This document shows, piece after piece, positions 8,199-40,500 of a stretch of 64,000 nucleotides of DNA; positions within the stretch are counted from its first letter, which is position 1, and the number at the start of each line of letters is the position of its first letter. Source of the DNA: a virus. The position numbers and the translations under genes were made by a program. The stretch is from positions 1-64,000 of the IMG/VR virus record IMGVR_UViG_3300017977_000066, one strand, 5' to 3'. A model generated the notes under the pieces. That model ran no database searches. It was given only the letters and a program-made list of their open reading frames with translations, and had not been told where the DNA came from.

Positions 8199-9604
8199 TA
8201 TTTCTTACCTTTTCTTATTTTTTTAATCACTCTGTTACTATAGTAGTTATTAGTATATAATAGACTACCATCATTAGCTATCACTATGGTTTTATAAATA
8301 TACATAGGGCCAGCATCCCTTATCGCTAGTACTACTTTAGGTTCTTTAGACTCTAACTTCTTAAGTAGGTTCCTAGGAGGTAGGTCATATCTAAGCCTTA
8401 TATTTAGTTTAGCATATTCTAGTTTATAACTTAGTTTAAACTTGTCATTAATGATTTCCTTTTTGATGATATTTTTATCTTTATCACTAGTTTCATAGAT
8501 AAGATCTGTTATATCTATATATTGTTCCTTAGTAGGCCCATCTCTTACATATGTATCTACTTCATTCCTAATAACATCCATGTTCCCCATAACTTTTCTA
8601 GAGAGACCAGTTGGGTAAAGTTCTTTAGCTAACTCTACTCCAGTTAAAGTCATAACTGAAACATATGGTTTATATACTATAGTAACTACGTGCTCTCCAT
8701 ATTTTAAATAATCAAAAAGATTCTTCTTATTAGTCATGTTCTGCATGTTAAGTATATAAGGAACATAGAAGTCCTTAAGAGTTTCCCTAACCTTAGTTAT
8801 GATATCTTGTACTAACTGATCTGGTTGTGGTAACTCTAGTACAGTATAGACAACATCATTAACTTTCTTACCTATATCTGACTCTGATTTATAATTAAGT
8901 CCATAATAGACATTATTATCAGCATCGTCTGGATAGAATCTTATTAGCTGTTTAAAATGGAATATGTCTACATCTAGTACAGGAAGTTTCCAGAAATCTA
9001 TACCGCCATCTAATAAATATTCTGCTTGTTCATCATGAGCTAGATATCTTTGCCTACCCATATTAGCTAATAGATCAGCTCTATCATTACCTAGGTTCTC
9101 TGAATGAGCTGGAACCTTACCTATCTTTAAAGAGAAGTGTTGTTTAGCATATAAGAAGTCTTTATATAAAGCATCTACTTCATCTACATTAGCTTTAACA
9201 TCTTCTATAAAGAATGTCTCTTTAAGCATCTTGTTAATGAAGTTTAAGCAATATGTACTATCTGCTAATATAGTAACCTCTTCTACTTCTAGGTCATCTT
9301 TCTCATTAAGTATGACGATAGCTTTATAAGCCTGCTTTATAGCATCTAGTTCAGCTTGGTTATTAGTAGTAGACTCTTTGTTATAGCCATATATCTCATA
9401 CACTCTATAGAGACCAACTTCATTTAACTCTTTATCTTTTTTGATCTCAGGCTTTAATAAATAACCCATATCTGTAAGTCCATATTTAGTGAAGACATTC
9501 TTAGGTTTAACATCTTCATCTAGTATGACTATATGTACACCATACCCAGTATCACCTGAATTATTATTAGCACTACCATCAGTGTAAATTAACGCTTTTC
9601 GCAT
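8198..9604 (-). CDS. RNase HI with long C-terminal extension
   Basis: 468 residues. Residues 1-185 form an RNase HI domain that cleaves the RNA strand of RNA-DNA hybrids: D9 in YTDGSANN, E85 in NNQAELDAI, D115 in LADSTYC and D177 in GNDRADLLA, with the active-site His in PAHSEN. About 280 further residues follow that I cannot assign. They are rich in Lys, Asp and Tyr, without zinc or nucleotide motifs. A likely job is removal of replication primers. First gene of the RNase H-dUTPase operon, with AAAGGAG before ATG 9604. Confidence 0.88.
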   Translation of the reverse strand: MRKALIYTDGSANNNSGDTGYGVHIVILDEDVKPKNVFTKYGLTDMGYLLKPEIKKDKELNEVGLYRVYEIYGYNKESTTNNQAELDAIKQAYKAIVILNEKDDLEVEEVTILADSTYCLNFINKMLKETFFIEDVKANVDEVDALYKDFLYAKQHFSLKIGKVPAHSENLGNDRADLLANMGRQRYLAHDEQAEYLLDGGIDFWKLPVLDVDIFHFKQLIRFYPDDADNNVYYGLNYKSESDIGKKVNDVVYTVLELPQPDQLVQDIITKVRETLKDFYVPYILNMQNMTNKKNLFDYLKYGEHVVTIVYKPYVSVMTLTGVELAKELYPTGLSRKVMGNMDVIRNEVDTYVRDGPTKEQYIDITDLIYETSDKDKNIIKKEIINDKFKLSYKLEYAKLNIRLRYDLPPRNLLKKLESKEPKVVLAIRDAGPMYIYKTIVIANDGSLLYTNNYYSNRVIKKIRKGKK

Positions 9605-9618
9605 AGCAAACTCCTTTC

Positions 9619-9624
9619 ATTCAG
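9619..9624 (-). promoter_or_regulatory. class B element for the RNase H operon
   Basis: CTGAAT core on the minus strand, directly before GAAAGGAG. A variant of the TTTGAA core. Confidence 0.35.
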
Positions 9625-9667
9625 TTAAATGTCTTGACATATAAAAACATTTTTTAAGGAAACCCCC

Positions 9668-10276
9668 ATGAATACCATAACTCCTCCAGTTAATCTAAAA
9701 GGAACATTTAAACTAAAAGCACCTTTAAACACATTAATAAATCCTAATGTAGTATATAGTGTTAGTAAAGTAAGTACAATAACATCACTCATAAATGATG
9801 GTATAAATGTAGAGCAGTTCATATATAAAGATAATGGCTTAACAACAGCTGATTATATAATAGCTCTAGAGAAACAAATATCTATAGTAACACTAATAAC
9901 AGAAGGTGGGTCTGTAACTGATATACCTGCTGACTACATTAGTTATATGCCTCAGATATCAGGTAAGGTTTTTATTAATAAAGCTTTCATTGTCAATGTT
10001 GGGTATGTTCCTAGTGAGTTAGATATAAGCTTCCTTGTTAATGAGTTCAATGACCTAGTTAATACTCAGCTAGGTGTAGAAAACGAAGTTACTATAGAAG
10101 ACATCTCTGGTAAGCTTATACTTAGTAATGATGAATACAATACCTATGAAAACAATAGGGTTGCTAGGATATCTAATAGGGATACTTGTAGGGGTAATTT
10201 AGAGAAAGCTCTAACTTTATTGGCTACGTATAAAGAGAAGATGAGGGTTCTTGTAAATAAGCTAGAGAACATTTGA
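9668..10276 (+). CDS. unknown protein, 202 residues
   Basis: Start ATG behind TTAAGGAAAC. The N-terminal part is Pro/Asn/Leu-rich and beta-like, the C-terminal 40 residues form a helix. No cysteine-based or catalytic motif is visible. The upstream gap contains TTGACATATAAAA rather than either phage promoter class. The end overlaps the next small gene as TGATG. Confidence 0.7.
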   Translation: MNTITPPVNLKGTFKLKAPLNTLINPNVVYSVSKVSTITSLINDGINVEQFIYKDNGLTTADYIIALEKQISIVTLITEGGSVTDIPADYISYMPQISGKVFINKAFIVNVGYVPSELDISFLVNEFNDLVNTQLGVENEVTIEDISGKLILSNDEYNTYENNRVARISNRDTCRGNLEKALTLLATYKEKMRVLVNKLENI

Positions 10277-16095: not shown

Positions 16096-16138
16096 TGTAT
16101 AGGATGGTATAAGCCATCCTATACATCTTTTTTTATTG
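16096..16138. terminator. terminator between repeat pseudogene and sbcC-like gene
   Basis: A 12-bp perfect stem (16096-16107 with 16114-16125), loop TATAAG, then TCTTTTTTTATTG on the plus side. The stop of the minus-strand gene lies in the right arm. Confidence 0.85.
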
Positions 16139-18566
16139 TTACTATTTCTTTTTCATTAAAAACACCAGTATAATTTATATTACTATTATCTAATATTAAT
16201 ACATCTGTATGGGTGAATCTTTGAAACATACTCTTATAATGGGAAATCATAAATATTTGCTCGAACTTAGACTTACCTAATTCTTCTATAAACTCATAAG
16301 CCCTAGTCCTATGCTTAGGATCAAAACTTATAGCGAATTCATCTAAGAATAATGGGAAGTCTAGCATATCTAAAAACTCCATAGCCGTTATCTTAAAAGC
16401 CACATCTATGATCTCTCGTATAGCACTACTTCCTTTTATAACATCTGGTATGGGTTCTTTTCTAGTACCTAGTTTTACTGGGAACCTAAATGTGAGGTCA
16501 CCTGACATAGTATCGCATGGCAAGATGTTAATTTCATATGTCCATATGCTATTGATGATTTCATTCATACGTTCTAAAACAGCATTTATAGTAGTGCTTA
16601 TAGAGACACCTATGATGCCTTTATTAGGGGATAAGCGCTCTTCTAATAGCTTAGCTGTTTTTAGTTCTGCCTTATATTTATCTAATTCTTTTATTAAGCC
16701 ATCCCTATGCGAATGTATTTTATTGTATTCTACTAATTTATTATCTATATTAGCTACTTCATGTTTGATTTCATATATGATATTGTTATAATAATCTCTT
16801 AATAACATATCATACTTCTCTCTCTTAACATCTTTTATTTTAGTTATAAATGTTTTAAACTCTTGATAGTATTTAGAAAGTTTATTTTTATCATTTTTAA
16901 TAATTTTATACTTATTAAGCTCATCGGCAATAGACATGGATTGTTTCATAGCTGCGGTTAACTTAACTCCTAACTCTTTTTTAAGCTGTTGCATATAAGC
17001 TAATTTATCTATAGTTACTGAGTTAAGTATGGTTAGTTTCTGTTGTAAGTTATGCAGCTCTTCTATGGCATCAGATACTTCTTGATAATCTGGTAGGGTT
17101 GCATATAAATCGGATATCTTCCTACTTAAAACATGTGTATCTAAAAATGAGTTACTAACTTCTTTTAATTCTTCATATAGAGGCATGAGACTATCGTTAG
17201 TTAATAAGAGTTTAAGCTTGACTATAAGATTTCTTTTAACATCTATAGCATCTAAAGATTTAGTTAACTTGGATAACTCTTGGTCTAATATAGATTTCTT
17301 ATCATAGTTCTTAGCTAGCTCTGACTTTAAAACCAGTAATTTTTGCTCATCGTGATTTGGTTTAAAAATATTAGAACACTTAGGACAAGTGACATCATCA
17401 GCTTCACTGTAAGCTATCTGTTTCTGAAGATCCCTGTCTAATATAGTAATAGTGTGCTCTACATCCATATGCTGTTGCTTAGTAGCTATGAGGTTTTTAT
17501 TAAGATTTTTAATAGTTTCACTAGTTACAGATATACCATCGCTATCTTGTAGATCATTAGCAAGCTCTAGCAGAACACTATGTATGGATACCAGTTCCTT
17601 TACATAAGTCTTAAAATCTTCATATCCTAGCTTAGTAGGATTTATCTCCTTTAATTTTTTACTTATCTTCTCTATATCATTAACTAGCTCTTGCTTATTA
17701 ACATCTGAAGTTAAACCATTATCATTTATATTTTTAAGCTCCTCTTTAATATCATCTATATTTTTATCTAAAGTCTTAAGCTCCAACTCTTTAGTTATGA
17801 TTAGTGTATCTACATTATGCATGATGTCGATATGAGCATCTCTATACTTATGTAAAATCTTAGCGGCAGATGCTTGTTTAAATAAAATATCATCACTTAG
17901 TTCATCTATAGGTGTTGTTATGGGTCTATGGTTTAAGATGTCATCTAGTAAGGATACGAACTGCTCTTTATCTTTCTTTAATACGACTATACGATCTTCG
18001 GTCATATCTTCCAATAATTTATCATCGAAGATTATCTTAGACTGTATCAGTTTTATATAACTAGTAAGATCTTTTATACGGGCTTTTACTTTATTATATT
18101 TGGACATAGCGAAATCATAGTCTATACTAGTTAAGATATCGGTGAACCATCTCTTTCTTTCTCCTACTGACATGTTAGTAAAAGTAGTTGCTGATAACAA
18201 CATATCATGGATATCTTTAGTGATGTTAAAATGCTCACTTATCAATATCTTCTGTGTCTTCATAAGTCCTACTTCGTTAAGCTCGGTTCCATTTACTTTA
18301 AAGCTATGTTTATTAGTATCTCTAACATAACATAACTCATAAGTCTTGTTCCTATGTAGGTATTTAGCTATCCTATACCCAGACTCATCATACTCGTTCT
18401 TAGTATCATCTACATTAGGGATGATCTCTTTTAATAGACTAGACTTACCGGAGCCATTAGAAGCTAAAATAGTCTGCATGTGTTGTTTAGGGAAATAATG
18501 TAAATATCTTATATTAGGTATATATAGCCTAGTGTAGTTCTTTAACTCTAGCTCTTTTAATATCAT
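16119..18566 (-). CDS. SbcC/Rad50-like (T4 gp46-like) recombination ATPase
   Basis: 815 residues from ATG 18566, which has AGAAGGAG before it. An upstream in-frame TTG at 18584 has no ribosome binding site. Walker A is ASNGSGKSS (35-43). Two long coiled-coil arms flank a zinc-hook CPKC near 394. Walker B is FPLFLDEFAISFD near 741, and the C-terminal head ends with IFMISHYKS. This is the architecture of the SMC-like nuclease partner that, with an SbcD/Mre11/gp47 nuclease, processes DNA ends for recombination-dependent replication. At 815 residues it is shorter than bacterial SbcC and nearer to phage gp46. The nuclease partner is not in this window. Confidence 0.9.
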   Translation of the reverse strand: MILKELELKNYTRLYIPNIRYLHYFPKQHMQTILASNGSGKSSLLKEIIPNVDDTKNEYDESGYRIAKYLHRNKTYELCYVRDTNKHSFKVNGTELNEVGLMKTQKILISEHFNITKDIHDMLLSATTFTNMSVGERKRWFTDILTSIDYDFAMSKYNKVKARIKDLTSYIKLIQSKIIFDDKLLEDMTEDRIVVLKKDKEQFVSLLDDILNHRPITTPIDELSDDILFKQASAAKILHKYRDAHIDIMHNVDTLIITKELELKTLDKNIDDIKEELKNINDNGLTSDVNKQELVNDIEKISKKLKEINPTKLGYEDFKTYVKELVSIHSVLLELANDLQDSDGISVTSETIKNLNKNLIATKQQHMDVEHTITILDRDLQKQIAYSEADDVTCPKCSNIFKPNHDEQKLLVLKSELAKNYDKKSILDQELSKLTKSLDAIDVKRNLIVKLKLLLTNDSLMPLYEELKEVSNSFLDTHVLSRKISDLYATLPDYQEVSDAIEELHNLQQKLTILNSVTIDKLAYMQQLKKELGVKLTAAMKQSMSIADELNKYKIIKNDKNKLSKYYQEFKTFITKIKDVKREKYDMLLRDYYNNIIYEIKHEVANIDNKLVEYNKIHSHRDGLIKELDKYKAELKTAKLLEERLSPNKGIIGVSISTTINAVLERMNEIINSIWTYEINILPCDTMSGDLTFRFPVKLGTRKEPIPDVIKGSSAIREIIDVAFKITAMEFLDMLDFPLFLDEFAISFDPKHRTRAYEFIEELGKSKFEQIFMISHYKSMFQRFTHTDVLILDNSNINYTGVFNEKEIVTIKKDV

Positions 18567-18630
18567 AAATGACTCCTTCTGCAACTAAAATATCTAGTGT
18601 AGTAAAGCATATACTCATGCTTATTTCGGT

Positions 18631-19574: not shown

Positions 19575-19898
19575 ATGAGTAAAACTAAAATAGAACTATT
19601 AAAACTAGCTAGCATGTTCTCACTTACTAGCATACCAGATAGAGATTTTAAGTGGTATTATGATGCAGCATTTAATCACAGTCTAACTGTAGAAGAGATG
19701 GATGTATATGATATCATCTTTAATCACATAACTGATGATAAATGTAGGGATGACATACCTACAACACATGGTCTAAAAGCTGTAGACAAATATTTGGATG
19801 AACATGGTATGCATAATGAAGAAGCGGAGTATATGTGTGATCTAGCTAGGTTAGATGCTTGGATAGTATATGTACTAAATAGAGATGACATAACATAG
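19575..19898 (+). CDS. unknown acidic protein, 107 residues
   Basis: Follows the DHH gene by ten bases with AAAGGATAAGAC before ATG. The protein is acidic, helical and has no recognised motif. The stop lies in the left arm of the terminator at 19888-19918. Confidence 0.65.
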   Translation: MSKTKIELLKLASMFSLTSIPDRDFKWYYDAAFNHSLTVEEMDVYDIIFNHITDDKCRDDIPTTHGLKAVDKYLDEHGMHNEEAEYMCDLARLDAWIVYVLNRDDIT

Positions 19899-19932
19899 GT
19901 CCTTAGCCTATGTTATGTACATTTTCTTTTTT
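19888..19932 (+). terminator. terminator of the DHH operon
   Basis: A 12-bp stem (19888-19899 with 19907-19918) then ACATTTTCTTTTTTTG. Confidence 0.9.
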
Positions 19933-19954
19933 TGTTTCATACTAGCCTCTAGAA

Positions 19955-20124
19955 GCTCTTATTTAAGTTAAGACTAGTATTTGTATAGATATCATATATT
20001 TATATCTTCTAGGTGTCTTAATGTGTCATATAGATACATACAGAACATCTGCCATGAACACAAAGTCAAGAGCAACACCATCACATCTTGGTTAAGATAT
20101 CTGCCATTAAGATACTGTAAGAGC
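19955..20124 (+). ncRNA. putative structured noncoding element, copy 1
   Basis: The last 60 bases (20065-20124) match 46245-46304 at 59 positions. GCTCTTA at 19955-19961 is complementary to TAAGAGC at 20118-20124, and both partners are present in copy 2, so a 170-base domain would be closed by this helix. Inside are a local hairpin ATCTT-GGTT-AAGAT (20085-20098) and a second AAGAGC (20069-20074) that could compete for the same GCTCTT. The domain begins just after the T run of a terminator. Strand and transcription are not known. A protein-binding DNA site is the main alternative. Confidence 0.5.
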
Positions 20125-20594
20125 CTATATCTACTTAAGCTTATAAGCTTAAGTTATTATGGTAATATTACTACTATTATTATATCTCTATCTTCTCTTA
20201 TATTATAGCTTCTATAGTAACTACTATAACTTCTACTTTATAGTAGCTTCTCTAGCTTTATAAGCTAGTATTTTTTTATTACAGCTGGTAACTTCTTTTG
20301 ACGCTCTTATATTAAAAAAAGTATAAGCAAGCCGGTCCCCTAGTATACCCTCTTTTTTCCAGCTAGTGTAGGTTAGTCGTTTCGTCTGAGACTCCACTCT
20401 GGTCCTGCCCTTACATTCCCCTGGAATCCTGTCCAGGCCATCAGTAAGTTCTAGAGTAACTATTACATTACTCATAATATACTAACTGACAAAAATAAAT
20501 ATTTATATCACATAGATAGGACTACTATAGATAACCACATACCTATACAGTACAGTTACATAACCAAACTGCTTTTTCTATATTAGCTAATTGG

Positions 20595-22138: not shown

Positions 22139-23134
22139 ATGACTAATGACCCTAGTGATAACACTGCACAGCTTAATACACTAGACCTTAGTAAGTTACA
22201 TAGGTATAGCTTCGGAGTTGTTGTAGAAGATAATGTAGATAATGAGTTTAAGATAAAAGTGTATCCTGTAGAGAAGCTATATAGTATAGGAGGGGATCTT
22301 AGTAAAGAAGATAAGTGGATACAGAAGAAGATCAAAGAGAGGAAGGTTAAGAAGACTGAAGAGTTCGATCCTCTTTATATTAAGAGTTTAGAGGATATCA
22401 CTATAAATAGAACTAGATATCTATATGCTAACTGGATAAAAGATAACAATCAGATAACCCCCCCTAACGTCTGTAAAGGCGAATATATAACTCTGTATAG
22501 ATATAGTAACAGAGATGAGTACTATTGGTCTGTAGAGCTAACTGACTTAACTCTTAGGAAAGAAGAGCATGTAGTATATACATTTTCAGATAAGTCTACT
22601 TTAGATAAGTCTGAGGATCCTATAGAAGATAGATATACTGTTACATTCTCTCCTAAGAACAAAGAGGTTAAGATACATACTACTGACAAATATGGAGAGT
22701 ATACTAAGTATGATATCACTATCAAAACTGATGATGGTTATATAGAGATACTTGATGGTAAGAAGAACAGTATCAAGCTTGATAGTACTAAAGATATGCT
22801 TCACACACATATGGAAGGTACTACAGCTAAGTATGATATAACTGTACATGGTGATGATGGTTATATAGAAACTAAAGATGATAAAGGTAATAACATCAAG
22901 CTTGACAGTAGTGCTGGAAGCTTGACTACTAACATCCTGAACAATGTAGATATAAAAACTAATTTAGTTAATATAGACTGCTCATCATTCTCGTTAAAAT
23001 CTGATGCTGTTAGCATAACATCATCTGCTACAACATTTAAAGGTGGTACTATCAAACATGATGGCACTAGTATAGATAAGTTACATGAACACACTGGTAA
23101 CTTAGGCATTAATACAAGTCCTCCAGTTAATTAA
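22139..23134 (+). CDS. baseplate central spike protein (gp5/gpV-like beta-helix)
   Basis: 331 residues behind TAAGGAGGC. After an N-terminal OB-like part (to about 150) come two near-copies of a KYDIT...DDGYIE...(I)KLDS beta-strand repeat, then a run of short Ser/Thr/Asn/Val strands typical of the intertwined beta-helix of VgrG/gpV/gp5 spikes. The end reads KLHEHTGNLGINTSPPVN, where H316-x-H318 matches the metal-binding tip of P2-type spikes. The trimer would pierce the outer membrane at injection. I see no lysozyme domain here, but one is present in the 28039-35220 protein. Confidence 0.8.
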   Translation: MTNDPSDNTAQLNTLDLSKLHRYSFGVVVEDNVDNEFKIKVYPVEKLYSIGGDLSKEDKWIQKKIKERKVKKTEEFDPLYIKSLEDITINRTRYLYANWIKDNNQITPPNVCKGEYITLYRYSNRDEYYWSVELTDLTLRKEEHVVYTFSDKSTLDKSEDPIEDRYTVTFSPKNKEVKIHTTDKYGEYTKYDITIKTDDGYIEILDGKKNSIKLDSTKDMLHTHMEGTTAKYDITVHGDDGYIETKDDKGNNIKLDSSAGSLTTNILNNVDIKTNLVNIDCSSFSLKSDAVSITSSATTFKGGTIKHDGTSIDKLHEHTGNLGINTSPPVN

Positions 23135-27993: not shown

Positions 27994-28042
27994 AACAGTA
28001 GCTAGTTAAAACTAGCTACTGTTGTTACTTTCTTTTTTTTAA
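27994..28042. terminator. terminator between 27990 gene and giant tail gene
   Basis: A 14-bp stem (27994-28007 with 28010-28023) then GTTACTTTCTTTTTTTT on the plus side. The neighbouring genes are convergent. Confidence 0.9.
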
Positions 28043-31000
28043 AAATTAGCTACACCATGACTTACTATAGGTTTTGTAGCTGGGGTTCTATTAGCTTGTT
28101 GATGATGTTGGTTGTTATCACTTAATGCTGATAGTATAGACTTGTTAAGTTCTACTAACTCACCCATCTTATTATTAGTATCAGCATGCACATGTAAGGA
28201 CTTAGCAAGTATGTTTTGTGAAGCTTTATGTGTATCATGCATCTCAGCAAGTTCTTTCTTATTATCTAGATGTTTAGTATCTATACTAACATTAGGGATA
28301 TGTACATCGTTACCTTTAGTAGATGGTTTACTAGTAGTACCATGTCTGCTAGTAGAAGTATTAGTACTAGCTATAGATGTATTACCACTTCCCATATCGT
28401 CTAGCTCTGTTAAAGTACTATGACCTGTTATACTAGATATAGTATTTCTATCATTGTTAACATCTGCTTCTATATCAGCTTTAGGAGCATTAGCTATATC
28501 ATCAGCGATACGAGTAGCCCTATGACCAACTTGACTAGCCCATTTTGATTTTAATAGTTCAGCACCTGCTTCAGTATACTCACCTTTAGCTATATTATTA
28601 AGAGACTTTTTGAATCCTAATAAGCCTTTAGGTCCTAAGTTAAATCCCATGTTGATAAGATCTCTCTGAATTACCTCAGGTTGATTATCTAACCAAGGGA
28701 GTTTACTATAAAGAGTCTTAGCAGTTTTATTAACATCATGGGCTAGTATCTTATAAGACTCAGGAGTTGTTATAACATCAGTATCTCTACCTATGATCTT
28801 CTTAAGAGGAACTCCTCCTTTAGCTTTATCTAATAAATGCCCAACACCGATGGTATCGTAACCTAGACTATCTTTATAAACTCTATTAACATTACCTTCA
28901 TCATCTACAAGGTTCTTGAGTAATAACCCTTTATTAAAACCTTTGTCTACTTTTATCTCACCTAGTATATCTTTACTAGTTATAGGTTTAGCTGGTTTAC
29001 TATAGATGTTATTAACAGACTTCTTAGTTATAAGATCATCAGAGCTTAAACTGCCTTTATAGTTACTGTTATTGGCAGATCTATGACCACTGTAGTCATC
29101 GTGACCAGGATGCCTACCAGTCATCTTCTGTACTTCTTTATTAATAGTAGATTCAGGGATGTCTGGTTTAATAGGGACACCATTATCATCTACTGGAACA
29201 TCATCACTATTGAATACATCAAAACCTATAACAGCTTTAGAGACAGCTGATTTAAAAGGCATGCCATCGTACATATATTTAACAACATGATAAGCATCAT
29301 ATGCTAACATAGACCATCCTACGAATGGTACGAATCTACTAGCTATCTTACCTAAGAGTTTTGCAGCGCCTTTCACACCTAGTTTCTTAATAAGGATAAC
29401 TTTTATTCTACTTAGCATAGCTTTTATAGCGCCACGTTTAGCTTTTTTAACTACTGTCTTCTTAGCTGCTTCTTTAACGACTTTCTTACCAGCAACTTTA
29501 GTCACGGCTTTAACGCCATACTTAGCACCTTTATAAGCTAGCTTAGTAGCACCTATACCAGCTTTTATAACATGCTTACCACCTAGTTTATAAGCAGCGC
29601 CAGCAGCTAATGCAGTAACACCAGCAGCACCTGCTAAACCTCCGTCACTAGTCATAGAGTCTTCTTTAGATGTTGTAGTAGAAGTAACATCTATACCCAT
29701 ACGTTTATTATACTCAACAGTCTCTTTTTTATCAGGGGCTATGGAACCTAAGCCCGGTATATGAGATAGTGCTGATCTTAAACTAAAACTAAGATTGCTA
29801 GGTAGGTGTTTAATATAGTCAAATCCTGTTTCTAAGCCATCCCATACTTTCTTAATATAGTGTCCTATAGTCTTAAATCCATTTATAGTAGATTTAACAA
29901 AAGTACTTGCTTGTTCAGGAGTTATACCTAATAATCCCAATATAGCAGTTCCGGCTAATAGTATATTAGTAGGAGTTAACCATGATGAGGCTTTCTTAAG
30001 TACATTTTTACCTTTACCAAGTAGTGCTTTCATTTTACCAGATGGTTTCTTACCATAGAGTTTCTTTAACCTATCTTGTTCATTACCATCTCTATCACCA
30101 TCACCATCTTTATCTAACTTGGAAGCTTCTTTAGCTTCTTCCTTGGCTTGGGCTTCTTCTTCATTCTCTTTAGCTATATTACTACTAGTGACCTCAAAAA
30201 GTTTCTTAGTATTAGCAGCTATGGCTTCTAGAGGATTTTTACTAGTGAATGAACTAAAATCTATAACACCAGTTGCACTAGCATTGTTATCGGTAGTTTC
30301 TTTTTTCTTATGGTCGAAGATGGTATCTACGCCTGAGAACTTGTAAGCTCCTTTTAAACCTAGCCCACCAACAGTCTTAGCAGCACTCCAAGCGCCTTTA
30401 TAAGTGGGCTTGATTACTTTACTAGTTAACATCATACCTTTAACATAAGCACCACCAGTAGCATTTAAAACTTTACCTATATCTAACCCAGGTCTAGTAT
30501 TCTCTTTTAACCAAGCTGTCCATTTCTCTTTCTCTTCAGGCGTCTCTAGTTGTTCTAATACTTCTTTAGCTTTTAGATCACCATTAGCCCAAGCTGTATA
30601 AAGATCTCTTCTAACAGGAGGATTGATCTTAGCTAGTGCTTTATTCTTGATTCTTTTAAGACTTTTACTAGCCATACCAAAAGCCATACCACTTCCTAAC
30701 CCGATGGTATCTTTAGCTATACCACCTAACTCAGGATAGAGAGATTTAACACCATTAGATACAGCTTTCATGGAACCAAAATAAGATTTACCAGCGAACT
30801 TAGCAAGATCTATAGCATTAGGGAGATGTAACTTACCATCTTTATCCATGATAAGTTCTTTACCATTCTTACCGATAACTTTCATCTCGTCCATGGTTAA
30901 CTTACCAGCTGTTTTAAAAGCTCTACCAACTCTTTTAGTTTGGTTTATGGCATACTTACCTATCTTAGTATTAGCTAATTTATTAACCATGTCTTTAACT

Positions 31001-34000
31001 GGCTTAGGTATAAGACCAGATAGTTTACTCTTCATTTTACCTACTAGCGAAGTAGGTTTACCATCTTCATTTTCAGAGCCCTCTTCTAGGGCTTTTTCCT
31101 GTACTTCTTCTATAGCTTCTTCATGTAGTTTAGTTACATTCTCTAAGAACTTATCATCTTCATTAAGCTTCTTCCATAAATTACCAGTAGGATCCATAGC
31201 TAGAAATGTCTTCTTATAAAGAGACTTAGCTTTACTATAATCTTCTGGCATAGGTAAGTTACCTAACAATGATTTCATAACCTTATCGAAGCCTTGTTCT
31301 TCTACTAACTTCTCGAACTCTTCAGAGTTCTTGATGATACTATCGGAAGCACCTTTACTACCTGATGTGAACATAGATTTAACTTCACCATACCATTTAG
31401 AAGTCTTCTCTTCTATAGCCTTAAGCTTAGGATTATTATCTAATGCAGCCTTCATACTGAAGTTACCATTTTCATCTTTAAGATCTTTTAAAGTTTCACT
31501 GTCTTTCAAACCTAGCATCTGGTCAGATATAAAAGACATACTATTAGCATATGCATCTGTTATAGACTTACTTAACTCTGGAAATTTCTTACTAACTCTC
31601 TCCAAGTTCTTGCTGAAGCTAGTGCTTACTTCCTCGAATGATTTAGGCATAGTTTTAGCTATGCCTTCTAATCCAGTTTTTAAGCTATCTACAAGGACTC
31701 CTACATCCTCACTGATATCATCTTTGAACTTAGACAGTTTCTCTCTGTTAGGTATAGCTAACTTGTTCTCGAAAGCTTGTTGTGGACTTAGCCTATTTAG
31801 ATGTTCACCATCAGCAGTGAACTTGAGATCCTTAGCAGTCTGCTTAGTAAATAACCCTTTAGTAGTTTTAGCTATATTAGAAGCAGCTCGACCTTCTTCA
31901 CTATTCTTAGCTTGTTCTAGTTTCTTCTTAGCTTGTTCTCCAATATCTTTAGCTTTCTTAGAGATGCCTAGCTCCTCGTCTAACTTTTTAGCCCCGTCTA
32001 TAAGTTTCTTTTTGTCTGGCATAACGAACTTAGTTTCGTATGCATTCTGAGGTGCTAGTTTATTTAGTCCTTTGTTATCTGTACTATAGCTAAAGTTCCT
32101 GAGTTTCTTATCAGTAACCAGGTCTTTAACACCTTTAGATACATCCTCCATCTTCTCTGTTAAGTTATATTTATTATCTAGCTCTTTAGCTTTCTCAGTA
32201 ACAGTATCTATACCTGTAGTAAGTTTGTTCTCTATCTTATTTAGTATTTCTTTACCAGTATCGGTATTTTCTTTAAAATCTTTAAGGTAAGTAGATTCAC
32301 CCTTGTAGTCTATATTTTTAATCCTATTAAAGTATTCATCTTTATAATCTTCTATATTACCTACTGCGAAGTCTATTTTACCATGTTTCTTAACCATATC
32401 TATATATGCATTAGCATTATCAGGTTCCTCTATGGCAGCCCTTTCCATCATAGTCATAAATGTCTGTGGGTCTCTATTAAAGAACATACTGGCACCATTA
32501 GCGGCTAATACTTCTTTAAATTTAGGATCACTATAGTTATCATTATAGATTTTAAATACCTTAGGAGCAACTCTACTATTTATTTCTTGTTCTTCTTTAA
32601 AATAGCCATTCGCTAGTCCTTTTTCCGAGTCTAACATAGATGGGGGTGGGTTTAAAGGTATACCTCTTTTAAGGTGTGCAGCTTCATGTCTGATGGTCTG
32701 GTCATCCATGGTGTTTTTAGCTATGCCATTTTTAGCTACTTTTCTGAACATATCTGTCCTCAGCATGACAGGATTTACCCCTTCTTCATTACCCTGTAAT
32801 AAAGCAGCTGCTCCCATAGTTTTTGGCATGGCACTAGCTTCATAAAATCTCACTGGTAGACCATCTACTATTTTATCTACATAGTTGTCTTCTTTACCGC
32901 CAAGCCCTCCTATTAGTTGGGCTATAGGGGTCTTACCACCTGCAGATATTTTTACATTAGATAAAAGGTTTTCTAATTTCTTTAAAACATCAGTTCTGAT
33001 GGTATTAGAATCTTTATCTTCTTTGTTTTTCTTATCCGCGATTTTAGTTTTTATTATGGGTCCAGTACTCTCACTAGCTAAAGCAACAGGATCTTCTGGA
33101 AGTAACGTTGAAGTAGATGTCCTAGGTTTTAAGTTAGCTAATCCGGCAACTATACCTCGTTTCGCACTAGTTTTCTTTTGTCTTACTTGACCTTTTTTCC
33201 TATTAGCACTGGTAACTCTCTTCCTAGGTTTAGACTGTTCAGGTTTTTCTTCGGCTTCTTCTACTTTCTTATTAAATTTCTCTTCGATATGCTTTAAAGC
33301 AACATTTTTATTAGTCTTAAGAACAGTCGTACCATTAGTTCTAGATAGATCACCTTTATCAAAGACACCAGAGTCTTCTAGCATACTAGGCCCACCAGCT
33401 AGTGATGATTCTTGTATGATGTCTCCGTAGCTAGCTAACTCTCTATCTTCTATACTATTAACTACCCTAAAGAACTCATTTATCTTATCTATATTTTCAG
33501 CACTATTATTTTTATTTAATTTATTAAGATGCTTCTCTATCTTCTCTTTAAGCTCTTTATCTTGTATGGTTTTTAAGAAGCCATTCTTAACTAAATAAGC
33601 TGGTACTAAAGACTTACCTGTTCCTATATAAGCTAATAGGGCCTGCATGATAACAGATTTAACTTCAGGCTTAGGATTCTTCTTACCTATGATGATCTCA
33701 AAGATGATATCGTTATCTAAAGCATCTGCTAATCGTTTACCTTTCTCTTCTACTTTCTTTTTAAACTCTTTTTTAAGTTTAGTTTCACTAGTAAAAGTAT
33801 TCTTCCTAAAATCAAAGACTTGCTTATCTTCACCACTTACAGTCTTAGAGCCTTTTCTTATAGTAGATAGTTCTCCAAGCATCTTGCTTAGTAGACCTGG
33901 TATGATTACTTCTACAGTCTTAACGAATTTATTATCTATAAAAGCTGCTTCATTAAGCTCTGAGGTCTTAGATACATCTATAGTATTTTTAGACTTATCA

Positions 34001-35220
34001 TTCTCTAATAAGTCATAAGCTACTTTTAAAGATTTTAGTTTAACTTTATCTACCCTAGTTGTATCTTTATCATCTTTAGCTTCTATCTCATCTATCTCAC
34101 GTTTGATAGCTTCTCTAGGATCTAATGTTAAGTTATTAAGCTCTCCTAATCTCTTACCAGATTCTCCTTTACCAGCAATACCGCTTACTATCTTATCAGA
34201 AGCTTTCTTAGTTATAGATTCTATAAGACCATCTACACCTATACTCATAAGCATAGCATTTCTAGAAGTACCGAACTCCTCGCCCATAGCCAGCATGTTG
34301 TCCATATCTTCCATACCAGCCATACTAGATACGAATGAAGATACTTTATCATTAACAAGGCGATTCATGTTTTTAGTTACTTTATCGAAAGTACTAGTAG
34401 ACTTTATGAGATTACCAACACCATCAGCAGCTTTCTTCATCATCTGTTGTTTTACGAAATCTGAAGACCTAGTCTTAACAAAATCAGGTAAGCCAGTATT
34501 CTTAACGATAGCTTCCATCTGAGTAGTTCTTATCTCACTATCTCTATGTAATAGATTATAAAGTTTTACTAGTGTGTAAGTCTGCTTCATTTGGAGTTCT
34601 AGATTTTTCTTGTAATAAGTATTATCAAGATCCATTTTTAACTCTACTTGTTTCTGAGAGTTACTAGCTATGATACCTAATATTTCATTACTTTCTTTAG
34701 CAGCTATTTCAGTAGCTTGTGCAGCTACATTTTGTTGTGCAGCTATCTTATCACCAGCTATGCCTAATAGCCCCGATACTTCAGAGTGTATCTTCTCGTC
34801 CTCAGTAGGTTCTCTTTCACTACCACTAGATTCATTCTCTTCGCTTAACCAATCTCTAACACTGTTGATACCACCAGTCATGCTGTCTGGTAAATAGTTA
34901 GATAAAACCCCTAATCCTGCAGAAGCAGCTTTTTTAACACTACCTACTTTTTCAGAAGCATTGTCTAGGATATTATCTACAGCATATTCAGCATCACCTA
35001 GCCTATCACCTATATCCCCTGGTAAAGCATTGAACATACTTTTCTTAAAAGATTTAGCTATATTTTCACTAGTTACAGCATCATCGAGAGCAGCTTTAAC
35101 ATCGCCAACAACACCAGTACTGGGTTTACCATCGTTAGCCATGGGATCTTCCATACCGATGTCTCCACCCCCTTCTAACATCTTGTCTATGTCATCCATA
35201 TCATCGAACTCATCGGCCAT
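28039..35220 (-). CDS. giant tail-associated protein with HEAAH motif, EF-hand and T4-type lysozyme domain
   Basis: 2393 residues from ATG 35220, chosen because CAAGGAG lies just upstream. A longer frame from 35262 lacks one. Long helical Lys/Glu-rich arms resemble a tape-measure protein. Near residue 840 is IRHEAAHLKRG, a zinc-metallopeptidase-type HExxH with a possible third ligand in KEEQE about 30 residues on. Near 1707 is DKDGDGDRDGNE, an EF-hand calcium loop. Hydrophobic stretches occur near 1753, 1865 and 1965. Residues about 2095-2240 form a T4-lysozyme (GH24) domain with Glu in LVDDEGN, then KDSLGYDTIGVGH. Such a protein would set tail length and digest peptidoglycan during injection. 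The protease role is inferred from the motif only. Confidence 0.85.
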   Translation of the reverse strand: MADEFDDMDDIDKMLEGGGDIGMEDPMANDGKPSTGVVGDVKAALDDAVTSENIAKSFKKSMFNALPGDIGDRLGDAEYAVDNILDNASEKVGSVKKAASAGLGVLSNYLPDSMTGGINSVRDWLSEENESSGSEREPTEDEKIHSEVSGLLGIAGDKIAAQQNVAAQATEIAAKESNEILGIIASNSQKQVELKMDLDNTYYKKNLELQMKQTYTLVKLYNLLHRDSEIRTTQMEAIVKNTGLPDFVKTRSSDFVKQQMMKKAADGVGNLIKSTSTFDKVTKNMNRLVNDKVSSFVSSMAGMEDMDNMLAMGEEFGTSRNAMLMSIGVDGLIESITKKASDKIVSGIAGKGESGKRLGELNNLTLDPREAIKREIDEIEAKDDKDTTRVDKVKLKSLKVAYDLLENDKSKNTIDVSKTSELNEAAFIDNKFVKTVEVIIPGLLSKMLGELSTIRKGSKTVSGEDKQVFDFRKNTFTSETKLKKEFKKKVEEKGKRLADALDNDIIFEIIIGKKNPKPEVKSVIMQALLAYIGTGKSLVPAYLVKNGFLKTIQDKELKEKIEKHLNKLNKNNSAENIDKINEFFRVVNSIEDRELASYGDIIQESSLAGGPSMLEDSGVFDKGDLSRTNGTTVLKTNKNVALKHIEEKFNKKVEEAEEKPEQSKPRKRVTSANRKKGQVRQKKTSAKRGIVAGLANLKPRTSTSTLLPEDPVALASESTGPIIKTKIADKKNKEDKDSNTIRTDVLKKLENLLSNVKISAGGKTPIAQLIGGLGGKEDNYVDKIVDGLPVRFYEASAMPKTMGAAALLQGNEEGVNPVMLRTDMFRKVAKNGIAKNTMDDQTIRHEAAHLKRGIPLNPPPSMLDSEKGLANGYFKEEQEINSRVAPKVFKIYNDNYSDPKFKEVLAANGASMFFNRDPQTFMTMMERAAIEEPDNANAYIDMVKKHGKIDFAVGNIEDYKDEYFNRIKNIDYKGESTYLKDFKENTDTGKEILNKIENKLTTGIDTVTEKAKELDNKYNLTEKMEDVSKGVKDLVTDKKLRNFSYSTDNKGLNKLAPQNAYETKFVMPDKKKLIDGAKKLDEELGISKKAKDIGEQAKKKLEQAKNSEEGRAASNIAKTTKGLFTKQTAKDLKFTADGEHLNRLSPQQAFENKLAIPNREKLSKFKDDISEDVGVLVDSLKTGLEGIAKTMPKSFEEVSTSFSKNLERVSKKFPELSKSITDAYANSMSFISDQMLGLKDSETLKDLKDENGNFSMKAALDNNPKLKAIEEKTSKWYGEVKSMFTSGSKGASDSIIKNSEEFEKLVEEQGFDKVMKSLLGNLPMPEDYSKAKSLYKKTFLAMDPTGNLWKKLNEDDKFLENVTKLHEEAIEEVQEKALEEGSENEDGKPTSLVGKMKSKLSGLIPKPVKDMVNKLANTKIGKYAINQTKRVGRAFKTAGKLTMDEMKVIGKNGKELIMDKDGKLHLPNAIDLAKFAGKSYFGSMKAVSNGVKSLYPELGGIAKDTIGLGSGMAFGMASKSLKRIKNKALAKINPPVRRDLYTAWANGDLKAKEVLEQLETPEEKEKWTAWLKENTRPGLDIGKVLNATGGAYVKGMMLTSKVIKPTYKGAWSAAKTVGGLGLKGAYKFSGVDTIFDHKKKETTDNNASATGVIDFSSFTSKNPLEAIAANTKKLFEVTSSNIAKENEEEAQAKEEAKEASKLDKDGDGDRDGNEQDRLKKLYGKKPSGKMKALLGKGKNVLKKASSWLTPTNILLAGTAILGLLGITPEQASTFVKSTINGFKTIGHYIKKVWDGLETGFDYIKHLPSNLSFSLRSALSHIPGLGSIAPDKKETVEYNKRMGIDVTSTTTSKEDSMTSDGGLAGAAGVTALAAGAAYKLGGKHVIKAGIGATKLAYKGAKYGVKAVTKVAGKKVVKEAAKKTVVKKAKRGAIKAMLSRIKVILIKKLGVKGAAKLLGKIASRFVPFVGWSMLAYDAYHVVKYMYDGMPFKSAVSKAVIGFDVFNSDDVPVDDNGVPIKPDIPESTINKEVQKMTGRHPGHDDYSGHRSANNSNYKGSLSSDDLITKKSVNNIYSKPAKPITSKDILGEIKVDKGFNKGLLLKNLVDDEGNVNRVYKDSLGYDTIGVGHLLDKAKGGVPLKKIIGRDTDVITTPESYKILAHDVNKTAKTLYSKLPWLDNQPEVIQRDLINMGFNLGPKGLLGFKKSLNNIAKGEYTEAGAELLKSKWASQVGHRATRIADDIANAPKADIEADVNNDRNTISSITGHSTLTELDDMGSGNTSIASTNTSTSRHGTTSKPSTKGNDVHIPNVSIDTKHLDNKKELAEMHDTHKASQNILAKSLHVHADTNNKMGELVELNKSILSALSDNNQHHQQANRTPATKPIVSHGVANF

Positions 35221-35256
35221 AGCATACTCCTTGTTTTTATATACGAACAATAAATC

Positions 35257-35262
35257 GTTCAA
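35257..35262 (-). promoter_or_regulatory. class B element for the giant tail gene
   Basis: TTGAAC on the minus strand, 37 bases before the chosen start at 35220. Confidence 0.4.
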
Positions 35263-35273
35263 CCCATCTTTTA

Positions 35274-35280
35274 CTTGAAA
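35274..35280 (+). promoter_or_regulatory. class B element for the 35301 RNAP gene
   Basis: CTTGAAA followed by TCAAGCATGAGGAAC. It shares the short divergent gap with the copy for the giant tail gene. Confidence 0.4.
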
Positions 35281-35300
35281 TCAAGCATGAGGAACACATA

Positions 35301-36911
35301 ATGAATAAACCTATAGACCCATTAGACATATCACTTCTAGTTATAACAAATAAGATCCTATCAGCTTTATCAGAGATAAGTAGTGCTGATATATATGAGA
35401 TAAATACTACAGAGTTCAAGAAAGACGGTCTTTTTTCTAATGATATATTCGGCATGCCTGGGAGTAAAGAGCGTATTAAGAACTTTGCTTATATAGATCT
35501 TTATGTAAAAGTATTGCACCCTAGGATATATAAAGAGCTTGTTAAACTATCTAGTTTCTATGGTAAGATACTGCAAGGTAAAGCTTATGCAGTTTTCGAT
35601 GAAAAAGAGAAAGATTTTGTATTATCTACAGAAGCTGAAGGTAAAACAGGTTTTAATTTCTTTATTAGACATCTTCCAGATATTAAGTTTAAACAAACAA
35701 ACTCTGAATCTAGGAAATTTAAGATAGAGTTCATCAAGAAGTATCCTATTAATGAGATACTCATAGATAAATACTTAGTACTACCAGCTGGATTAAGAGA
35801 CTACTCTATAACTGAATCTGGTAAACCTCTAGAGCATGAAATAAATGCCTTATACAGGACTGTACTAAGAGTAGCCACATCTGCTAAACAGTTCAGAGAT
35901 GATACTTCTAGTAACGATTATATTAACTCTGTTAGACTAAGAGTTCAGAAAGCTATCAATGAGGTCTATGAGTACATAGAAGAGCTACTTAATGGTAAAG
36001 GTGGTTATATACAAGATAAGTGGACTAAACGTACTGTTACATATGGTACTAGGAATGTTATCACCGCTAGCCCTAAAGTAGTCACGGATCTTAAAGATAA
36101 GAATAAGCCTAGAGCTACTAATATAGAAGTTGGTGTATTGCAGACCGCTAAAGGCATATTGCCAGCAACTATATTCTTATTAAGAACTAACTTCCTATTC
36201 GATATCTTCGATCCTGAGTCTACTAAAGCTAGGTTAATAAATCCTAAGACTCTTAAGAGAGAACTAGTAGATATAAGTGAGAAAGCTAGAAGTAGTTGGG
36301 TTAGCGATGATGGGTTAGAGAATACTATCACTAAGCTTAAGCAACCAGAGATAGCACTTAGTGAGATAAAAATAGATAACAAATATCTATTACTTATAGA
36401 AGAGAAAGGTGATGCTATAAGAGTCATAGATGATATATATAAATACCCTGGTATAGATAAAGATAACTTAAGACCTATAACATATATAGAGTTAGTATAC
36501 CTAGCATTGTTTAACCATATGAAAGAACATCCTGCTTATGTAACTCGTTATCCTATCACAGGGTTAGGTTCTATTAATATCGTAGAGCCTTATCTAAAGT
36601 CTACCATAGATAGTACTCGTAAAGAAGTATATCTAAGAGGAGCTTCTGAACCTATAATAGCTGAAGAGTATCCAGACTTAACATCTCAGGTATATACTGG
36701 GTTAGGGTTAGGAACTATATTTCTAGCACCTATGGGAGCTGACTTCGATGGCGATAAGGTTTCATTAAGTTTTCTTTTAGAGAAAGAATCTGTAGATGAA
36801 CTACAAGATTATATTAATACTAAGAAATACTTTTTAAGTCCTGAAGGAGAATTGATATTCAGTGTTAGTACTAATGTTAATGAAATAGTTATGAAAGATT
36901 TCACAGAGTAA
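35301..36911 (+). CDS. RNA polymerase beta'-type subunit, N-terminal part (probable virion RNAP)
   Basis: 536 residues. The conserved clamp/active-centre region is visible: VRLRVQKAINEVYEYIEEL, then KWTKRTVTYGTRNVITASP (equivalent of the GKRVDYSGRSVI segment), and GADFDGDKVSL near 479-489 with the three catalytic aspartates. No CxC...CxxC zinc site is present, unlike the 12130 homologue. It ends 50 residues after the catalytic loop, so it is again only the N-terminal part of beta'. Late-type class B control, and a position between the tail-lysozyme gene and the beta gene, argue that it belongs to the enzyme packaged in the virion. Confidence 0.88.
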   Translation: MNKPIDPLDISLLVITNKILSALSEISSADIYEINTTEFKKDGLFSNDIFGMPGSKERIKNFAYIDLYVKVLHPRIYKELVKLSSFYGKILQGKAYAVFDEKEKDFVLSTEAEGKTGFNFFIRHLPDIKFKQTNSESRKFKIEFIKKYPINEILIDKYLVLPAGLRDYSITESGKPLEHEINALYRTVLRVATSAKQFRDDTSSNDYINSVRLRVQKAINEVYEYIEELLNGKGGYIQDKWTKRTVTYGTRNVITASPKVVTDLKDKNKPRATNIEVGVLQTAKGILPATIFLLRTNFLFDIFDPESTKARLINPKTLKRELVDISEKARSSWVSDDGLENTITKLKQPEIALSEIKIDNKYLLLIEEKGDAIRVIDDIYKYPGIDKDNLRPITYIELVYLALFNHMKEHPAYVTRYPITGLGSINIVEPYLKSTIDSTRKEVYLRGASEPIIAEEYPDLTSQVYTGLGLGTIFLAPMGADFDGDKVSLSFLLEKESVDELQDYINTKKYFLSPEGELIFSVSTNVNEIVMKDFTE

Positions 36912-36956
36912 CATGAGTTCGGTATATCCGAGCTTGTGTCTCCATATTTTTTCAGT

Positions 36957-36976
36957 CATATATTACTTACATGAAC
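36957..36976 (+). promoter_or_regulatory. class A promoter for the 37011-37441 unit
   Basis: TATATTAC at 36959-36966 followed by TTACATGAACTTAGAAC, within the longer repeat shared with 7201-7254. Confidence 0.7.
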
Positions 36977-37010
36977 TTAGAACTTAAATATTAAATAAAA
37001 GGAGTCAGTT

Positions 37011-37136
37011 ATGACTAAATTACAATTCAAAGTTTTTACTACGTACCTACGTGGTAACGGATACGATTTAAGTAAAATGAGTGTGGGGCAGTATGGTGTC
37101 CTATATAACAGTTACAGAAAAACAAGGAGGATATAA
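37011..37136 (+). CDS. unknown 41-residue basic peptide
   Basis: ATG 37011 has AAAAGGAGTCAGTT in front, identical to the leader of the 10395 gene. Basic and Tyr-rich (ends YRKTRRI). The stop overlaps the next start as TAATG and contains that gene's AAGGAGG site, which supports translation. Function unknown. Confidence 0.6.
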   Translation: MTKLQFKVFTTYLRGNGYDLSKMSVGQYGVLYNSYRKTRRI

Positions 37137-37441
37137 TGTTAAGTGTTGGAATAAGGGAGTTAGACATACATAATGTCGGTATGCCTGCAATTACAGACGA
37201 CACACTTTTAGTAGGCTTAACTGAAGCCACTATTCGTAGTCACTTAGAAAGAATAGAGGCTGACTGTATAATGGAGTCTAGACTAGACATAGAGAACCAC
37301 GTTAATTTCGAAGTTTTTGAAGAAGCATTTAAAAGTGCCCCTTCATTAGGTGCGACTAAAGAAGAGTGGGATGAGTATGTGGCTTATCCTACATTAAAAA
37401 ACTTTAGACGGATTAGGAAACTATATTGGATAGGGTTTTAA
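37136..37441 (+). CDS. unknown acidic protein, 101 residues
   Basis: Translationally coupled to the preceding 41-residue peptide and behind AAGGAGG. Acidic helical middle, aromatic C-terminus (LYWIGF). No recognised family. Confidence 0.65.
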   Translation: MLSVGIRELDIHNVGMPAITDDTLLVGLTEATIRSHLERIEADCIMESRLDIENHVNFEVFEEAFKSAPSLGATKEEWDEYVAYPTLKNFRRIRKLYWIGF

Positions 37442-37460
37442 TCCCTATTCTTTTTTTATT
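37430..37460 (+). terminator. terminator after the 37136 gene
   Basis: A 6-bp stem (37430-37435 with 37443-37448) around the stop codon, then TCTTTTTTTATTT. Confidence 0.75.
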
Positions 37461-37478
37461 TGCCCACATCTTTTTTTC

Positions 37479-37484
37479 TTTGAA
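37479..37484 (+). promoter_or_regulatory. class B element for RNAP beta
   Basis: A T-rich run then TTTGAA and AATACCCATAAGGAA, a model example of the class. Confidence 0.5.
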
Positions 37485-37505
37485 AATACCCATAAGGAAT
37501 ACGAT

Positions 37506-40500
37506 ATGTCATTAACACAAGAAAAGTTTTACTATAAATTTGGAATAAGAAAACCTATACAGTTGTTAGAGCCACAAGTTTTAAGTTTAGATACTATACT
37601 ACTACCTATGTATAGTGTCATACATATGCTTAATGTGGATGATGGCTATTACCCATCTAGGAAACAGCCCATCTTAAAAAATGTGTCTGATGCTATCATA
37701 TATAACAGACTTAACTATGAGCCAGTACTTCATAAAGCTACTGAGCTAGCTATGAAAGAGAGAAATCTTGTTAGTGGCATTAATAAGTCACATCTTGATT
37801 TCACTACCTACACTAGATCTAGATTTAACCATATCCTGTCTACTAAGAGAGCCAAGTTAAAAAATACAGTTCCTTTATTCACTTATAAATACATACATAA
37901 ATATTATAGATATCCAGAGTCTCTATTATCTAAGATTTATAAATTTGAAAATAAATACTCTACCATAGTTAACGATATTATTAACATGGAGAATACATTT
38001 AAAGCCATGGAAATAAAAGACGATAGCTTCAAGCAGTACCTTATAGTAGAGACTCCTAAGATACTATATGACTATAATATCATAACCAGATATCTAGATA
38101 AGGATAAGGATGCTGCTTACTTAAAGCTTTTCCATAACGAAACTTATATGCTTATGTTAGAGCTCTTTAAGCTACTAAATAGTGAGACTTCTGAAGATTC
38201 AATATTATCAGGATTAGCTAAACTCTCACATGTAGATATCATGTTTAAACAAGGTTCAGCTGGTGTTATAGTTAACCTTAAAACTCTACTAAGCTTTAAT
38301 AAAGATATGGGTGAGACTGGTATGTTCACTAATAGTACACTATGTAGGAGTATCATCAAGCTCTTTAATATACTACAGACTTCAGTTGGTATGCTAGAAG
38401 AGGAAGTAGTGCCTCTTAGTAAAGAAGAACTACTTAAGAACTTTAAGAACCCAGATGAAATAGTTGATACTACTGATGTTATCTCCGATGTTAATGTAGC
38501 TATGAAGATAGCTGAAACTGATAACATGCCTATAGAGGATACGGTATTAGTAGAGAGCTTAGAATTTAAAAATAAATATGATAAACAAGCAACGCTAGAA
38601 GATATCTCTGAAGCTAAGTCTATAGAAGATGTTGCATTAGCTAACCTTAACGAGCTTAATGAGAATAATAAGCTAGATAAGAAGAAACTTGAGAAGCTTT
38701 CTTCTATAGTAAAAGATACTCTTAATAAACCGTCTCCTTTTAAAGATGGTACTAAGATAAAAGATAACCTTACTGTAGATAAAGCTGATATAGATATAAC
38801 AGAACAAGAGACTAGATTACCAGATGTAAATGTTGTCTTTAATAAAGAGGAGCTTCATGATCCTATAACTATTAAGACTAAGAAGTATATGAAGGAAGCT
38901 TTTAAGAAAGATATGGTATCTAGCATCATGGGCATACAAGGTACAGGCATGATAGTAGAAGATATAGAGATCATACCGCATGATGATACCCTAGGTGACT
39001 ATGATGAATATGCTATAAAAGTAAATGACTTAGGTAAGACAGCAGGTAGTACTGTTAAACTTATGATACCTAGAGTTAATGATAAGGGCGTATTCACTAT
39101 CTCTAATAATGAGTATTTACTAAGGAATCAAAAAGCTGATGCTATCTTAAAGAAGATCAAGTTCAACCGTGTATCATTAAGTACAGCTTATGGTAAACTC
39201 TTTGTAGATAAGGCTCCGTTTAAAAAACTAGATAGAGGGTATAGTCTTAGGAAAGAACTGTTAAAGTTAAATGAAGATGAAATCATCTCTAATCTATCAG
39301 CTGGTTCTATAAGTGTATATGGAGAAGAGTTACCTAAAGATTATACTTTATTTGGTAGATATGTAAAAGCTTTTAAACATAAGAGTTACTACTTTAACTT
39401 TAACTTCGATAAGAGGAAAGAGCTTATAACTACTAAAGATCTTAAACTAGAGACTATAGAGCATAATAAGAAATACATATTATGCGGGCATGCTTCTAAA
39501 GATCTGTTAGTTATGGATGAGGATAATATAATCTATAGCTATAATGGTAAGTATACTAAGCTAGGTACCATATTTGATTTAGTTCCTATAAACACAACTT
39601 CTCTTAAGAAAGAGTATAGCATGGTTAAGATATTTAAAAGCTATGTTCCAGTAGCTTATCTTTTAACTTACTATATGGGACTTAAGAATGTGCTTAAAAC
39701 TCTTAAAATAAAGTATGAAGTATTAGATGGTAATAAGAGAGTAGAAGTAGATGATAAGACTATAGTAGTTAAATTAGATGGTTCTACTTTAATTTTATAT
39801 CCTAATAACGAAACTGACTCTATGATACTTAATGGATTTAATAATGATATTAAGATCATGAAGCAGATGACTTTCGATATGCTTAACCATAAAGACCAAG
39901 CTATGTTCATCTTTAAAGAGATGAAACTTAATCTCGTATCGGTAACAGAGATAAAAGCCTTAGAGACTCTCTTCATAGATCCTGTATCTAGATCTACATT
40001 AGAGCTTACTGATGAACCTACTACTTTTGTTGGTCTGTTAGTTAGGGCTGCTGAGATGTTAGTGGATGATAACTATAAACATCCTAATAGCTTCAAAGGG
40101 TTTGTTATTAAAGGCTATGATAGGATACCTCAGTTAGTTTATAAAACATTAGTATCAGCAGTTAAGAAGAAGATAAGTGGTGATAGTTTTGGTAGGGGTA
40201 AGATGGTAGTAGATCCATATGATGTATGGAGGAGTCTTAATGAAGATAGCTCTGGAGTATTAGTAGATGACTTAAACCCTATAGCGGATCTAAAACAGAG
40301 TGAAGATACTACACTATTAGGTGCTGGTGGTAGAAGTAAAGAATCTTTAGTTGGTAAAGATAGAGCCATGCATGAAGATGATGTTGGTATCATGAGTGAA
40401 TCTTCTAAAGATAGTAGTGATGTAGGTATAACAGCTTATCTTTCTGCTAACCCTAAATTTGCTAATGCTAGAGGTACTAAGAATGAAGATGGTAAACTTA

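Follow-up and report, generated by a model that had tools for sequence, protein, structure and literature searches.

Two intergenic loci of this phage are composite noncoding elements, and our data suggest that each may encode two convergent small RNAs, which would be made during infection and act in trans as regulatory or protein-binding molecules. We consider this reading about evenly poised between right and wrong. The first-pass annotation had drawn attention to a match at 59 of 60 bases between 20065-20124 and 46245-46304, which we confirmed and which extends to 78 nt at 95%. This 60-base block occurs in exactly two copies, in the same orientation and 26 kb apart, in the whole source record of 154,896 bases (33% GC), whose first 64 kb are the stretch of DNA analysed here (the window). 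The block is, however, only one island within a locus of approximately 560-680 bases per copy. Beyond the + strand unit that contains it lies a GC-rich unit on the minus strand, which in copy 1 carries a 55-nt motif with compensatory base pairs. Comparison of its homologs gives good support for classing this motif as a previously unlisted RNA motif family of the phiKZ-related clade.

The virus belongs to the phiKZ-related jumbo phages, among which it forms a distinct branch, and it encodes a multisubunit RNA polymerase of its own. The window encodes pieces of the RNA polymerase beta and beta-prime subunits, ribonucleotide reductase, SbcC and other jumbo-phage proteins, and at 28039-41651 a transglycosylase is followed by two RNA polymerase genes, as in phiPA3, FLC6 and KpLz-2_45. 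Identity of its proteins to those of cultured phages is at most 37%; by profiles of the polymerase and other proteins, its nearest relatives are G002 (50% at the amino acid level), G035 (55%), G039, G041, G037 and G036. These records are metagenomic contigs and may be incomplete. In the nearest relatives, the genes that flank copy 1 (16119-18584 and 22139-23134) are adjacent or nearly so, and the same is true of the genes that flank copy 2 (43793-44527 and 48756-49514) in the relatives where both were found. Thus, both copies sit in blocks particular to this virus, that is, in lineage-specific insertions. Both also fall within its longest series of genes that have no homolog in the relatives, counting ORFs of which some lie inside copy 1 and are probably spurious.

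Several other features of these genomes were recorded along the way. Two small paralogous genes (45269-45535 and 46969-47229; 88 and 86 aa, E 4e-8) lie on either side of the copy 2 locus. A 100-base repeat (73%) at 52660-53254 lies within and right behind the gene of the Thy1-type thymidylate synthase, which points to tandem duplication of part of this gene. Allowing up to one mismatch, the record contains 27 sites of the phiKZ-type early promoter TATATTACTTATATGA(GCCTA); every one is on the + strand (for example at 10873, 12077, 18633 and 46825), and a short 5-prime stem-loop, of which GACCAAATAGGTC is an example, often comes after them. A second promoter-like class, a T-rich stretch followed by TTTGAAWA some 33-35 nt before the start codon, is found upstream of genes that lack the early motif (4554, 37506, 48410, 59489 and others in the window). 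Three relatives have in common a GTTGCGATCACTGCTATCTAGTTACGAGARCCGTAGCGACC-like GC-rich noncoding island (G041 97500-97200, minus; G002 15600-15300, minus; G039 124485-124720, +), the G041 copy of which has no Rfam match at E up to 1.

Along the + strand, conservation between the two loci is a mosaic. The first conserved part is a 5-prime block around AGAAGCTCTTAT; a diverged arm separates it from the 60-base core, which is followed by a hairpin, a 39-base block, another diverged stretch and a terminator-like hairpin, the last at the same relative place in both copies. The 5-prime block (TCATACTAGCCTCTAGAAGCTCTTATTT, 19937-19964, in copy 1, with no other match as good elsewhere in the genome; TCATATAAGCCTCAGAAGCTCTTATCT, 46108-46134, in copy 2) holds the sequence GCTCTTA at 19955-19961 and 46125-46131, and the near-invariant core ends in TAAGAGC at 20118-20124 and 46298-46304. 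These are the two arms of the closing helix described by the annotation, and they are present where it had placed them. The arm between the conserved blocks is another matter: in copy 2 (46136-46240) it is nearly free of G, with 5 in the 105 nt of its + strand, where the copy 1 arm (19966-20060) has 14 in 95 nt, and the two arms align no better than shuffled sequences do (p = 0.11). Downstream of the core, the adjoining CTTAAGC/GCTTAAG hairpins were found in both copies (20134-20153 and 46314-46334), followed by the 39-nt block, which is 95% identical between 20158-20196 and 46366-46404.

This + strand unit is bracketed by terminators. In total, 3 and 4 terminator-like hairpins were found in the two loci, compared with the 0.3 expected from shuffles. 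Both copies indeed open behind a terminator on the + strand: in copy 1 it belongs to the upstream + gene and consists of a 13-bp hairpin and a T run (19888-19930), while in copy 2 the hairpin TATAGGACA/TGTCCTATA with its T run (46058-46104) was read directly from the sequence. In both loci a second + strand terminator comes 320-390 nt after that of the upstream gene, formed by CTAGCTTTATAAGCTAG and a T run in copy 1 (20252-20276) and by TCTTAAGCTTTATCAGCTTAAGA and a T-rich tail in copy 2 (46451-46485), and we propose these as the 3-prime ends of the unit. In AR9, a phiKZ-related phage, strong termination was observed at predicted terminators (PMC5312081); since such predictions have been shown to work there, the second terminator implies a separate + transcript. 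This transcript would start shortly behind the upstream terminator, stop at an intrinsic terminator of its own, measure approximately 345-385 nt and contain the closing helix, the core of 60 bases and the CTTAAGC hairpin. The early promoter TATATTACTTATATGA does not precede the unit.

The claim that no reading frame explains the conservation was borne out. In copy 1, one + frame is open through the block (19981-20208, with a TTG start), and in copy 2 the same frame has no start codon. Because the copies have no start in common and the sole substitution in the block is nonsynonymous, coding does not explain why the block is conserved. Minus-strand mini-ORFs that start in the core (MVLLLT...) were dropped, as they have no Shine-Dalgarno sequence and diverge at once. 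Regarding structure, the closing domain is more stable than its dinucleotide shuffles on the + strand in both copies (z -2.45 and -2.71) and not on the minus strand (z -0.42 and -0.86). The core alone has no local structure on either strand (z about +0.4), and consensus folding of the two full copies gives z values of -4.0 and -3.2 on the two strands, which are too similar to decide between them. The closing helix is identical in both copies and so gives no covariation evidence; nor does the + unit as a whole, as its core has no relatives. The internal AAGAGC, which had been proposed to compete for GCTCTT, is present at 20068-20073 and 46248-46253, and two alternative folds are therefore possible by sequence; comparison does not support them, as the copies are identical at the bases involved and cannot discriminate. 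From the terminators, the mosaic conservation and these moderate folding scores we infer a + strand RNA, for which the core, conserved in sequence and not in local structure, would serve as the recognition surface.

No noncoding patches of the genome are richer in GC than the two islands noted after the copies, which reach 51% GC at 20331-20460 and 53% at 46591-46725, against 33% for the genome. Both are C-rich on the + strand, and we propose that each encodes a structured RNA on the minus strand. Upstream of them, in the minus sense, lie the promoter-like motifs GTTAGTATATTATGA (20472-20486) and GTTAGTATATAATGA (46757-46771). These correspond to the 15-base motif GTTAGTATATWATGA, which has exactly two matches in 155 kb, one per copy, where 0.01 exact matches would be expected. 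At the opposite end, an 11-bp hairpin with a T-rich tail on the minus strand (46562-46586) is the proposed terminator in copy 2, and the corresponding end in copy 1 is a weaker hairpin with a T7 run near 20313-20319, also on the minus strand. The RNA would thus start behind GTTAGTATATWATGA, extend over approximately 150-200 nt and end at a terminator facing the + unit. Aligned directly with each other, the two islands do no better than shuffles (p = 0.42). Moreover, the covariance model of the motif described below scores 3.9 bits on the copy 2 island, at the expected place and strand, which is not significant, so that a homology between the two islands would have its support in the promoter-like motif and in short colinear words.

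The copy 1 island contains the 55-nt motif, at 20402-20456 on the minus strand. When the GC-rich noncoding islands of the relatives were listed, its minus strand was seen to resemble two islands of G037. The same two were the sole matches (E 0.004 and 0.027) when a profile built from just the copy 1 island was run against 12 related genomes. A covariance model built from the three sequences then found a fourth member at 82791-82842 of G036 (E 0.0075), an island that had been listed as GC-rich and noncoding before the model search. The consensus consists of ACUGAUGR, a 6-bp stem with the loop CAGSAU, and RGAAUGUA; in copy 1 and one of the G037 members (G037b), an outer helix (CUUAC/GUAAG and CUAC/GUAG) encloses the UGAUGR/RGAAU internal loop. 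Across the four sequences, which come from three phages with two of them from the G037 genome, all 24 of 24 stem cells pair, and four of the six stem pairs have changes on both sides. None of 500 shuffles reached the pairing or the covariation score of the motif, and sliding the partners abolishes the score. Searched across IMG/VR, a degenerate pattern of the motif was found only in these phages and in one coding chance match; the motif is absent from 40 further jumbo-phage records and has no Rfam match. Weak matches in G023, G020 and G015 were rejected, as they lie inside or at the end of genes. The other G037 member (G037a) lies less than 1 kb from the homolog of gene 22139, a gene that in this virus is close to copy 1, but neither the interval nor the orientation is the same; as a shared context this is suggestive only.

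The annotation had left two options, a family of phage noncoding RNAs or a paired DNA site. The former is now better supported, mainly by the GC-rich island on the opposite strand and not by the domain it had described, whose core is without relatives. As for the latter, it is conceivable, if unlikely, that the loci are paired sites for replication, partition, packaging or recombination, with proteins binding to the AAGAGC repeats, the palindromes and the AT-rich blocks. What keeps this explanation in consideration is that the core is conserved by sequence and has no local fold; in addition, TAAGAGC/GCTCTTA sites are concentrated in the two loci (5 of 36 in the genome), and the copies share their orientation across 26 kb and occupy lineage-specific insertions. 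However, the terminators that bracket the + unit in both copies speak against a DNA site. The GC-rich islands, which stand out in an AT-rich genome, and the covarying hairpin, whose loop is conserved, fit RNA better, and neither locus is marked by a skew switch.

A different arrangement of transcripts, which we regard as improbable, would be one long minus-strand RNA of 560-680 nt that extends from GTTAGTATATWATGA across the GC-rich domain and on into the core, similar to the large ornate RNAs of other phages. Both copies keep the order and orientation of island and core, the whole copy 2 element folds well on the minus strand (z -5.0), and the GC skew of the loci is negative on the + strand, opposite to that of + strand genes. 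Yet island and core are kept apart by the minus-strand terminator-like hairpin of copy 2 and by the T7 run of copy 1. Moreover, the closing domain lacks stability on this strand (z of only about -0.4 and -0.9), and Rfam detects neither GOLLD nor ROOL.

We searched for relatives of the conserved core. Exact-pattern scans of IMG/VR with two pieces of 19-20 bases returned only a near-identical contig and a coding chance match (L004), and the second piece found nothing in GTDB genomes. Similarly, blastn searches of plasmids were empty and those of phages produced no meaningful match, and a profile of both copies gave nothing significant against twelve related phages. The 60-base core therefore looks private to this virus. 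Rfam had no match in the window at the gathering threshold; at E up to 1 both loci gave sub-threshold chance matches only, and a G037 copy gave no match. We also discarded a match to a CRISPR repeat at 20209-20236, which was sub-threshold.

The absence of the core from every relative outside this virus would be expected if the loci were a chance or recent duplication, or decaying remnants, with no present function. We give this little credence. A recent plain duplication would diverge evenly, and here divergence is strongly uneven, with the core at 98%, the second block at 95%, an arm that cannot be significantly aligned, and hairpins that are kept; selection on the conserved parts fits this mosaic better, and either selection on those parts or their gene conversion can be inferred. 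Furthermore, both loci are intact in the near-identical contig, where the only difference over the 11.6 kb around copy 2 is an inversion (TTC to GAA) of the loop of the 11-bp hairpin, at 46573-46575. As only the loop is inverted, the palindrome itself is shown to be intact. It is also scarcely credible that the GC-rich islands encode very short minus-strand peptides from the ATG inside CTGATG, since this frame, although present with 17-36 codons in four of five sequences, never has a Shine-Dalgarno-like sequence, stops after two codons in G036, and at stem pair 3 differs between copy 1 and G037a in a way that alters both amino acids (TGG to AGG, CAG to CTG) and keeps the RNA pair.

How would two convergent small RNAs compare with those described so far? 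In phiKZ, Grad-seq has identified noncoding RNAs of approximately 100 nt in the PHIKZ298 3-prime region and of 180 nt in the p40 5-prime UTR, and both of these structured RNAs were detected on Northern blots (PMC8545117). They resemble the RNAs proposed here in being small, structured and intergenic, in having two stem-loops and an intrinsic terminator, and in coming from a phage with the same type of RNA polymerases; in contrast, they are single UTR-derived loci, while ours are a diverged, terminator-bracketed pair with a facing GC-rich unit. The large ornate GOLLD and ROOL RNAs (PMC12286853) are likewise phage-encoded and noncoding, and would be similar in total length if the locus were one RNA, but they often lie near tRNA islands, and the present window has no tRNA. 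Neither copy matches their Rfam models. The covarying motif has CUGAUGA beside a hairpin, as in the hammerhead core; however, GAAU or GAUA stands in place of GAAA after the stem, and the folds predict a two-way internal loop instead of a three-way junction. For these reasons, and because Rfam gives no match, we rejected the hammerhead ribozyme. Finally, the group I introns of the clade are also duplicated, structured and noncoding, but they split genes, examples being those in the RNA polymerase genes of G002 and the one at 126036-126581 of G000, whereas the present loci are intergenic; with similarity to these introns at chance level only, they were discarded as an explanation.

Some further observations concern the repeats and introns of the relatives themselves. 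Group I intron-like sequences (AAGATATAGTC, GTTCAACGACT) interrupt RNA polymerase and other genes, in L012 (the G000 interval above), in G002 at 9453-9984 and 37544-41250, and several times in G037, G028 and G014; Rfam at the gathering threshold did not flag those of G002. The distant relative G001 has a two-copy intergenic element, upstream of co-oriented genes, at 50502-50605 and 127646-127542 (L022 10502-10605 and L026 7542-7646), and its hairpin is compensated between the copies (GGCTTATATATAC/GTATATATAAGCC versus GGCCTGTATATAC/GTATATACAGGCC). This element contains a promoter-like core and is not homologous to our loci, and we do not take it as a parallel. In other relatives, the two-copy noncoding repeats could be identified as promoters, terminators or group I introns.

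Taken further, the model of two convergent RNAs leads to a conjecture that we think doubtful: that the clade as a whole has a two-gene RNA module, present in two copies per genome, in which a GC-rich ACUGAUGR-stem-RGAAUGUA RNA faces an RNA with an invariant 60-nt core, both acting in trans during infection, for example by binding a phage RNA polymerase or a protein of the phage nucleus. Jumbo phages with multisubunit RNA polymerases have so far yielded few noncoding RNAs, and almost none of these is conserved from one phage to another. The covarying motif, found in three phages, provides a concrete handle on such RNAs, through model searches of new genomes, Northern blots and knock-down with antisense oligomers, a method that is already effective in phiKZ (PMC12571901). 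A convergent arrangement, if real, would also show how these phages place RNA genes between their operons.
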